In this document: positions 17,004-63,417 of the stretch, piece by piece
Position numbering within the stretch: position 1 is the stretch's first letter
Layout: each line of letters starts with the position of its first letter
Assembly: GCF_934924865.1 (NCBI RefSeq)
Contig: NZ_OW235315.1
Location: 1,860,001-1,924,000, forward strand
Origin: Tepidibacter aestuarii
GTDB taxonomy: Bacteria > Bacillota > Clostridia > Peptostreptococcales > Peptostreptococcaceae
Length of the DNA stretch: 64,000 bases
Direction of reading: 5' to 3'
Notes under the pieces: generated by a model
The model's database searches: none
The model's input: the letters and a program-made list of their open reading frames with translations, nothing else
Told to the model about the DNA's origin: nothing
Position numbers and translations under genes: made by a program

Positions 17004-17059
17004 TATACAAAAAAGTGAAAAACTTCAAATATATAATTTGCTCCATTGGTTAAATTAAT

Positions 17060-17135
17060 ATAAAGCGAAACTTAATTTAGATGGAATTTTCACTCTATCT
17101 GAATTTATAGCTACGTAAGTGCTCTTTGGGTAAAG
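17060..17135 (-). repeat. Truncated copy of the 149-bp structured repeat (copy C)
   Basis: Read on the minus strand this matches the last 75 or so bases of the full copies at 53082-53230 and 63216-63364: the ACTTACG segment, the terminal hairpin and the ending TTAAGTTTCGCTTTAT. The 5' half is missing. It lies between a terminator and the 49-codon gene at 17160, opposite in orientation to that gene. The hairpin is kept with two mismatches. Confidence 0.85.
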
Positions 17136-23021: not shown

Positions 23022-23103
23022 ATCGAGTAGCTAGAAAATATGATAATTAGTCCTATTTTCTTTACTCTCACAGAACCGGACTTACGTTTACCGTATCCGG
23101 CTC
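23022..23103 (-). mobile_element. Group II intron remnant: domains V and VI
   Basis: On the minus strand, 23103-23073 forms a domain V hairpin. Arms GAGCCGGA/TCCGGTTC carry the catalytic AGC triad, followed by an upper TACG/CGTA stem with a GTAAA loop and the two-base AG bulge. Next comes a domain VI-like stem (AGAAAATA/TATTTTCT) and the typical 3' end CTACTCGAT. No reverse transcriptase or 5' domains remain in the window, so only the tail of the intron survives. Confidence 0.8.
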
Positions 23104-23240
23104 CTGAAATTTTTCTCCAAACTAATAATAGTTTTACAACAACCCAACTTCGTATCATCTTTAATAAGTGACGTAACTTCCAAGATTTCACTGACACAAA
23201 GTAGCCCGTATTCTCTTGCTATGATAGCACCAGGTTTCAT
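23104..23240 (-). pseudogene. Fragment of a PEP-utilising enzyme (PpsA/PPDK mobile domain)
   Basis: The minus-strand frame encodes KPGAIIAREYGLLCVSEI followed by LEVTSLIKDDTKL. This matches the swivelling phosphohistidine domain of PEP synthase and pyruvate phosphate dikinase (SHGAIIAREYGIPAV and later ...IIKDGQ). The conserved histidine region is lost; a stop lies just upstream, and the frame runs into the group II intron tail. It seems to be what is left of a gene once carrying the intron. Similarity is by eye only. Confidence 0.5.
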
Positions 23241-53036: not shown

Positions 53037-53081
53037 AATATACCCCCTCATAAGTTCTTTGATTATAAAGGTTTTCGATTC

Positions 53082-53230
53082 ATCCGAAAGCTAAAAGTTC
53101 TAAATCTACATCCTTTTAAGGGTAGAGATAAGAACTTAACAACTTCTGGATTAGCTTACCCAAAAGGGCACTTACGCAACTAAAAATTCAGTTGGAGTAA
53201 AGACTCCACCTGATTTAAGCTTTGCTTTAT
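53082..53230 (+). repeat. 149-bp structured repeat, full copy A
   Basis: Begins ATCCGAAAGCTAAAAGTTCT and ends GCTTTAT. It is about 90% identical (134 of 149 by hand count) to the reverse complement of 63216-63364. Predicted pairings are an outer AUCCGAAAGCU/AGCUUCUGGAU-like helix, a nested AAGTTCT/AGAACTT hairpin, a short ACC/GGG-type hairpin and a terminal TGGAGT/ACTCCA hairpin. It sits between the DUF2935-like start and the broken alkD gene. Confidence 0.9.
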
Positions 53231-53358
53231 ATTATTAGATATACAAAAATAACGTGTGTAATAATATTTCTTAACTACTTTGTATTTAGTGGTATACTAT
53301 GTTTAAAATAAAGAAAAATAATATTCGTTTTTGGAAATATCATAAGGAGGTTTACAAC

Positions 53359-55731: not shown

Positions 55732-55752
55732 ACTTAAAGATTATTTAATTTT

Positions 55753-55848
55753 ATCCGAAAGTTAAGAGTTTTAAGACTCCACCTTCCTAAGGCTATAGAT
55801 AATAACTCTATATCTTCTGGATTAGTTTAACTAAAATTTTCACTTTAT
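55753..55848 (+). repeat. Internally deleted copy of the structured repeat (copy D)
   Basis: Matches the full copies from ATCCGAAAG through CTTCTGGATTAG, then jumps to the end TTTCACTTTATGTCAA, missing about 53 bp that include the terminal hairpin. The 5' hairpin arms are changed (AGAGTT/AACTCT), but still pair. It lies about 90 bp upstream of the 56-codon gene at 55939. Confidence 0.8.
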
Positions 55849-55938
55849 GTCAAAGATAACTTTATCCACAAATTTCTTAGAGTAAAATCAAAATTTTTAC
55901 ATAAAATAAATTAGATTATATATAAAGGAGATGTTTGT

Positions 55939-63198: not shown

Positions 63199-63215
63199 AT
63201 TAATCCCCCATTGAC

Positions 63216-63364
63216 ATAAAGCGAAACTTAATTCAGATGAAGTTTTTACTCCAACTGAATTTTTAGTTGCGTTAGTGACCTTTTAGGTAAGCTAATCCAG
63301 AAGCTGTTAAGTTCTTATCTCCAGCCTTAAGAGGATGGAGTTTTAGAACTTTTAGCTTTCGGAT
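63216..63364 (-). repeat. 149-bp structured repeat, full copy B
   Basis: Minus-strand copy with the same length and ends as copy A (starts ATCCGAAAGCTAAAAGTTCT, ends GTTTCGCTTTAT and is followed by GTCAATG). It lies between the decarboxylase stop and the start of the membrane-protein gene. Terminal hairpin arms AATTCAG/CTGAATT are perfect here, with TGGAGT/ACTTCA kept by a G-U pair. Confidence 0.9.
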
Positions 63365-63417
63365 ACACTTTGACTTTACCATTTCTTTATTATATTCATA
63401 AATACTATTAATGTCTT

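Follow-up and report, generated by a model that had tools for sequence, protein, structure and literature searches.

A folded, gene-less repeat with TTTAT ends in Tepidibacter aestuarii and other Bacillota, probably a non-autonomous mobile element

The stretch analysed here (the window) comprises 64,000 nucleotides of Tepidibacter aestuarii contig NZ_OW235315.1, from position 1,860,001 to 1,924,000. It holds four copies of a dispersed repeat, placed as the original prediction had claimed, and the family proved much larger than claimed, with at least 40 copies in the genome. The two full copies have the same length (149 nt) and are 90% identical in a repeat search of the window, in agreement with the earlier estimate of about 90%. 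All four copies were recovered with a covariance model built on the window genome's own copies (R1), including the one that had been described as about 53 nt shorter and the one without its 5′ half. A fifth R1 match, on the reverse strand at 63292–63393 (E 0.001), mirrors the 63216 copy. The features are as follows.

53082–53230 (+): full copy of the long class (repeat search; R1 match 53079–53233, 134.5 bits), preceded by TTC at 53079–53081
53079–53083 (+): left pentanucleotide TTCAT (TTC + AT), read as a decayed TTTAT target site, TTTAT standing here in 16 of 22 aligned copies of the same genome and in 38 of 40 copies of genome G037
53082–53092 (+): 5′ strand of helix H1, ATCCGAAAGCT (covariation)
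53141–53151 (+): 3′ strand of H1, AACTTCTGGAT (covariation)
53095–53101 (+): 5′ strand of helix H2, AAGTTCT (two-sided changes in 7 of 7 pairs)
53131–53137 (+): 3′ strand of H2, AGAACTT (covariation)
53105–53126 (+): hairpin H3, TCTAC...GTAGA (two-sided changes in 7 of 7 pairs)
53152–53156 (+): linker TAGCT, of which AGC (53153–53155) pairs with the right tail (helix H4c) and, with the preceding GGAT, makes up the proposed internal guide
53157–53176 (+): about 20 nt specific to the long class, with a small CCC/GGG hairpin (class comparison)
53178–53221 (+): right-end hairpin, H4b and H4 (AACT, ATTCAG, TGGAGT / ACTCCA, CTGATT, AGCT; covariation)
53224–53230 (+): right tail GCTTTAT, whose last five letters (TTTAT, 53226–53230) belong to the element (end survey, tail-linker helix)
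63216–63364 (−): second full copy of the long class (repeat search; R1 match 63213–63367, 156.6 bits)
55753–55848 (+): copy with an internal deletion of about 53 nt (R1 match 55750–55851, 80.7 bits)
17060–17134 (−): 3′ part of a copy, the 5′ half missing (R1 match 17057–17134, 44.5 bits)

Elsewhere in the window, a group II catalytic intron model (RF00029) matches at 23022–23105 (−) with 43.7 bits, and the interval between 22427 and 23453 contains no open reading frame (ORF) of 150 or more amino acids.

The element folds into two domains, a 5′ domain made up of H1 (AUCCGAAAGCU/AGCUUCUGGAU type), H2 and H3, and a 3′ domain made up of H4b and H4, for which a hand-drawn secondary structure was used. 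Both full window copies beat each of 200 shuffles in folding, on either strand (z −3.75 to −6.53). Among 22 copies of the window genome, two-sided changes occur in 14 of 41 pairs with 91% of cells paired, which none of 500 shuffles equalled. With 51 distinct sequences the pairs with two-sided changes rise to 39 of 41 (345 double-change cells, at most 58 in slid controls), and with 57 distinct sequences they number 38 of 41 (429 double-change cells, at most 75 slid), with a covariation score of 0.490 against at most 0.104. The sequences of alignments A5 and A6 were chosen by hand as diverse sets and fitted to the model, which biases them towards it, the margin being large nonetheless; A5 includes one misplaced reverse-strand row (L088 1560–1694). 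The letters of the helices vary with pairing kept (for example in L105, L109 and L191), and a G-U pair is conserved in 42 of 52 distinct rows with letters. The nested helix and hairpins of the original prediction are thus real and covary, and compensatory changes have kept the two-domain fold intact among widely diverged copies. No Rfam family (4227 models) matched the element in the window at gathering score, or in seven loci up to E = 3; together with the covariation, this bears out the suggestion of a new structured family. The closing helix proposed by RNAalifold (AGCUAA/UUAGCU) fits Tepidibacter and, by inspection, not other families, and was rejected. Pair-keeping and pair-breaking transitions among Tepidibacter copies stand at 96:62 in paired sites and 126:64 in unpaired sites, giving no excess of the former, as it should be if copies decay once inserted; the asymmetry of G-U and A-C, tried as a discriminator between RNA and DNA, gave no separation. 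Extra sequence is present in the apical loop of H4 in L096, L200 and L227 and in the linker region of L185, with the ends kept, and such insertions within the element may mark cargo sites.

The linker that follows H1 covaries with the right tail and so closes the right hairpin with a further helix, H4c. In Tepidibacter, AGU pairs with ACU(UUAU) and AGC with GCU(UUAU); at the covarying position, 45 distinct copies comprise 22 U-A, 18 C-G and 5 others (Fisher p = 9e-11 for the linker-tail association in 41 of the 45, kinship ignored), and the helix has a covariation score of 0.336 against at most 0.113 when slid, with 93.3% paired. By inspection, other lineages carry the linker/tail combinations AUG/CAU, AAC/GUU and AAG/CUU. 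Over the wide set the helix scores 0.418 against at most 0.171 slid, with 74.8% of cells paired, the alignment of such short linker and tail stretches by the covariance model being imperfect; the +2 slide control pairs 78.2% with far less covariation, and the number of pair types is not above that of shuffles. Because the 3′ strand of H1 (GGAU) is contiguous with the linker, the two make one stretch, GGAU-(U)-AGC, which is nearly complementary to the right end joined to the left end over a single TTTAT, and we infer that it acts as a guide.

The element carries no gene. It is inserted immediately 3′ of a pentanucleotide resembling TTTAT, and its right end is a TTTAT of its own. For the analyses of ends, ORFs, orientation and identity, 72 of 87 R1 match rows were used, with cut-off, second, reverse and weak matches omitted. 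The pentanucleotide TTTAT stands on the left in 38 and on the right in 39 of 40 copies in G037, a genome of another family, with AT-rich, unpatterned flanks directly outside the ends; the corresponding counts are 14 and 15 of 20 in the Tepidibacter congener G003, and 16 and 19 of 22 in the window genome. In two lineages the element's own right end is mostly TTGAT (20 of 25 copies in JAUYTY01, 7 of 9 in LGGM01), and the left letters there are TTTAT in 13 of 25 (TTGAT in 1 of 25) and 4 of 9 copies, respectively. As left and right letters differ and vary independently, a target duplication was rejected: the left letters come from the target and the right letters are the element's own. The ends show no long terminal inverted repeat by inspection. 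The TTTATGTCAA noted earlier after the right end is present at two window copies, and elsewhere the bases after TTTAT look free. Among redundant loci, 9 of 61 occurrences of TTTATCCGAAA directly follow a right-end tail, so that the ends of older copies are reused as targets; G037 also holds a head-to-tail pair of copies (L057).

A sodium:solute symporter gene in Tindallia (locus L199) is split by a copy of the element, the only clear intragenic insertion. The left half matches PF00474 positions 2–195 (E 1e-17), and the right half positions 233–406 (E 4e-4, with 19.9 bits below the curated cut-off of 22.8). Removal of the element with one TTTAT kept gives a frame of 477 codons, the longest obtained; shifting the joint by 1–2 bases gives frames of 259–351 codons, and with the element in place no frame spans the site. 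It is because of this reading frame that the empty site is read as a single TTTAT. No uninterrupted close homologue was found in the six genomes searched, five of which gave only distant ones (22–27% identity), with an additional short piece at 68% identity, the sixth being Tindallia itself. Most other ORFs ‘restored’ by joining the flanks look spurious, and L199 alone was kept. Copies lie in either orientation and mostly between genes: 72 of 85 examined insertion points fall outside any 100-codon ORF even with the flanks joined, so that the earlier description of the repeat as lying next to broken genes is not established.

The window genome consists of a chromosome of 3.63 Mb and a second contig of 38 kb. 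Of its 89 candidates 40 were scored, and all of these match R1 at E ≤ 0.001, one of them on the small contig; 40 copies is therefore a lower bound. They fall into size classes of about 149 and 129 nt, the long class having the extra 20 nt or so. At the same threshold, with 150 candidates scored in each genome, there are at least 110 copies in G003, at least 92 in G037 and 32 in G079. Consensus blastn matched 12 of 61 genomes, namely 4 of 4 Tepidibacter, each with many copies, six from other families of the order, and two from other Peptostreptococcaceae genera with single marginal matches (E 4e-4 and 8e-4). Under stricter filters, R1 matched 33 of 297 genomes (24 of 135 genera) in the order and, at E ≤ 1e-4, 30 of 398 genomes (24 of 267 genera) in a sample of the phylum. 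A pattern scan of named genomes gave 90 stretches, and R1 (E ≤ 0.01) was positive in 80 of the 80 listed, a check that bears mainly on the rest of the element since the scan pattern is part of the 5′ domain. The hosts, named by record labels and in many cases metagenome-assembled genomes (MAGs), include Tindallia, Thermincola, Desulfosporosinus, Gracilibacter, Paradesulfitobacterium, Anaerosolibacter and Anaerovibrio. Divergent copies from G490, used as query, led to two copies on a Pseudalkalibacillus plasmid (E 6e-10 and 1e-9), a 3′ part on a Peribacillus plasmid (E 0.003) and a stretch of 34.6% G+C in a Klebsiella-labelled record (E 0.006), so that relatives of the element are present on two Bacillales plasmids. 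When four divergent family members were compared with plasmids by blastn, three gave no match and the fourth gave only these three records. The Klebsiella-labelled record (L408, CP079755.1 220561–222631, a plasmid labelled Klebsiella grimontii) holds a Bacillales-like copy, and its label or assembly may be wrong. Carriage by phages or viruses was rejected, as neither of two viral-contig scans yielded any stretch and three phage searches were without a match. In the window genome, L004 (C2:7008–7153) and L005 (C1:1803347–1803492) look identical including their near flanks, which points to a segment common to both replicons.

Near-identical copies (up to 99%) sit in unrelated flanks. Median and maximum identities are 95.0% and 99.3% for 40 G037 copies, 94.8% and 99.2% for 7 Tindallia copies, 91.7% and 99.2% for 25 JAUYTY01 copies, and 85.6% and 95.5% for 13 short-class copies of the window genome, which suggests recent activity in the other genomes and older activity in the window genome. 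The orientation of neighbouring genes is even (++ 43, −− 40, −+ 21, +− 17 and 3 far, for 124 of 132 copies placed). With the replication strand inferred from local GC skew, the leading strand holds 17 of 39 copies in the window genome (counted by hand on 39 of 40 matches, the C2 copy left out), 33 of 75 in G003 (75 of 110) and 39 of 73 in G037 (73 of 92), the latter two among the matches listed. The lack of strand bias indicates that the repeat behaves as a mobile element and not as a leader RNA. Composite transposons were also rejected, as 12 regions with neighbouring copies had no common cargo by blastn except for a tandem gene duplication in G037. One region of that genome (L299, C1:672000–686000) carries five same-strand copies within 9 kb, part of which is a 1.9 kb block duplicated in tandem (76% identity).

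We conclude that the repeat is probably a non-autonomous mobile element of about 125–160 nt that has spread through Bacillota and is moved in trans by an enzyme, one of the two readings offered by the original prediction. The copy numbers and spread, the sharp TTTAT ends, the symporter insertion, the near-identical copies and the covariation support this reading, as do the tail-linker helix, the lack of orientation preference and the reuse of right ends as targets. By analogy with single-strand transposition of the IS200/IS605 type, an enzyme supplied in trans would recognise the folded strand. The two hairpins would abut at GGAT-(T)-AGC. With GGAT binding the left TTTAT (through AT-CC) and AGC the right one (through GCT), both TTTAT would meet at one junction, where strands would be cut and joined at these letters; individual copies would then decay freely. 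Several results count against this reading: the strand bias expected of a single-strand (lagging-strand) mechanism is absent; the one clear intragenic case comes without an uninterrupted close homologue and with a right half below the PF00474 cut-off; and the wide-set tail-linker helix pairs less than its +2 slide. The left cleavage point would, moreover, lie inside the base of H1, which overlaps the target letters. The IS608 layout differs in this respect.

The IS200/IS605 family is the closest known system in its way of working. As described in the accessible text of PMC7290912, its members insert 3′ of a fixed penta- or tetranucleotide, lack long inverted repeats and target duplication, have subterminal hairpins and leave ends-only copies (PATEs); for group A IStrons the sequence preceding the insertion is TTGAT, ATTAT or TTTAT, according to the accessible part of PMC4227781. 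Our element resembles them in its insertion 3′ of a pentanucleotide, its folded ends and the lack of target duplication, and differs in having TTTAT-like letters at both ends. It could accordingly be a PATE, the joined left and right ends of an ordinary IS200/IS605 element served by a known TnpA in trans, and Y1_Tnp matches do occur in 18 of 19 further repeat-bearing genomes (the exception, G097, is 75% complete). We regard this as unlikely. None of 83 fetched TnpA/TnpB loci is bounded by the element, and a TnpA/RAYT partner was rejected for these loci; they include 30 of the 97 Y1_Tnp matches from the 19 further genomes, the other 67 lying outside the set. Only three hold a significant copy (L172, L166 and L145), and none of these bounds the gene. 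On visual comparison, 25 of 34 TnpB loci have a 3′ region that seems unrelated to the element, a complete-looking IS200-like locus (L063) has different ends by eye, and hairpin-like palindromes found by fuzzy search in L121 and L173 are unmatched by R1. TnpB is missing from the whole window genome, as the original prediction had said of the window, and from 5 of 8 genomes and more besides; it was found among the first eight repeat-bearing genomes only in G001 and G002, and in 11 of the 19 further ones. These observations, with the even distribution over replication strands, do not support the proposed homology to an IS200/IS605 right end or omega RNA; the likeness in way of working stands. None of the outcomes that the original prediction had named as refuting it was observed.

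The same search weighs against the preferred reading, that of an element moved in trans, since no mobilising enzyme was found among the loci and genomes searched and two genomes (G001 and G038) carry the repeat with no Y1_Tnp match. The window genome has a single partial Y1_Tnp match (profile positions 10–56 of 121, 23.6 bits, in an open frame of 138 aa), which by eye we take to be the remains of a RAYT gene. Y1_Tnp proteins of about 250–340 aa are abundant in many repeat-bearing genomes, G101 for example having 25 matches, and L145 encodes one of 257 aa with an element copy nearby. In the accessible text of PMC6006769, REP sequences are scattered palindromic repeats that such a Y1 enzyme is believed to mobilise in trans; they are short hairpins tagged GT[AG]G that flank the RAYT gene. 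The present element is instead two-domain and 125–160 nt long and does not flank such a gene, a copy lying near only L145 among the fetched Y1 loci. Bacterial MITEs are likewise short, gene-less and multi-copy, whereas here the ends are direct TTTAT and, by inspection, lack terminal inverted repeats of 15–30 bp; the inverted repeats and target duplication of a MITE moved by a DDE transposase are absent, and the pentanucleotides differ within lineages.

It appears quite improbable that the repeat is an RNA element, propagated through reverse splicing or through being copied back into DNA, with GGAT-AGC resembling an internal guide for both junctions. The RNA-like fold with its conserved G-U pair, the internal stretch complementary to both ends and the lack of replication-strand bias would suit it, but both strands fold well, copies insert in either orientation relative to genes, and no reverse transcriptase or ribozyme link came up in an analysis of less than genome-wide scope. 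That the repeat is a regulatory or structural RNA of the host (a leader, a terminator or a small RNA) which simply occurs in many copies is very improbable despite the strong conserved fold and the position mostly outside ORFs, given the even orientation relative to neighbours (on which a cis-regulatory RNA was rejected), the sharp TTTAT ends, the insertion inside a gene, the many truncated copies and the lack of an Rfam match.

By size, TTTAT motif and behaviour, the closest described repeat is bcr1, compared here by description only. In the accessible text of the sources, bcr1 belongs to the group A interspersed repeats (bcr1–bcr3) of the B. cereus group, is 147–167 bp long, occurs in tens of copies and is intergenic with a conserved secondary structure (PMC2267715); it is listed among bacterial MITEs (PMC3733652) and described as confined to the B. 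cereus group (PMC6542083). The two are alike in length, copy number, intergenic position and conserved fold, and the TTTAT motif of bcr1 is found at the element's ends in G037, G003 and the window genome; the element differs in that it occurs in many other Bacillota. In the open-access papers searched we found no description of the element family. A bolder version of the preferred reading, possible and rather doubtful, would see in the repeat a novel class of mobile elements without genes. A single internal guide, GGAT-(T)-AGC, would pair with both ends and hence with the TTTAT junction, and the nucleic acid itself would unite donor and target; such elements, served by an enzyme, would have moved across Bacillota, and bcr1 would be their branch in B. 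cereus.

A wide family with defined ends, a defined fold and at least 110 copies in one genome makes the question of its mobilisation testable, and the element would account for numerous intergenic hairpins that lack annotation in Bacillota genomes, and for some breaks in their assemblies. Among the neighbours of its copies are a tmRNA gene (L007 548–897) and a purine riboswitch (L053 1385–1486).
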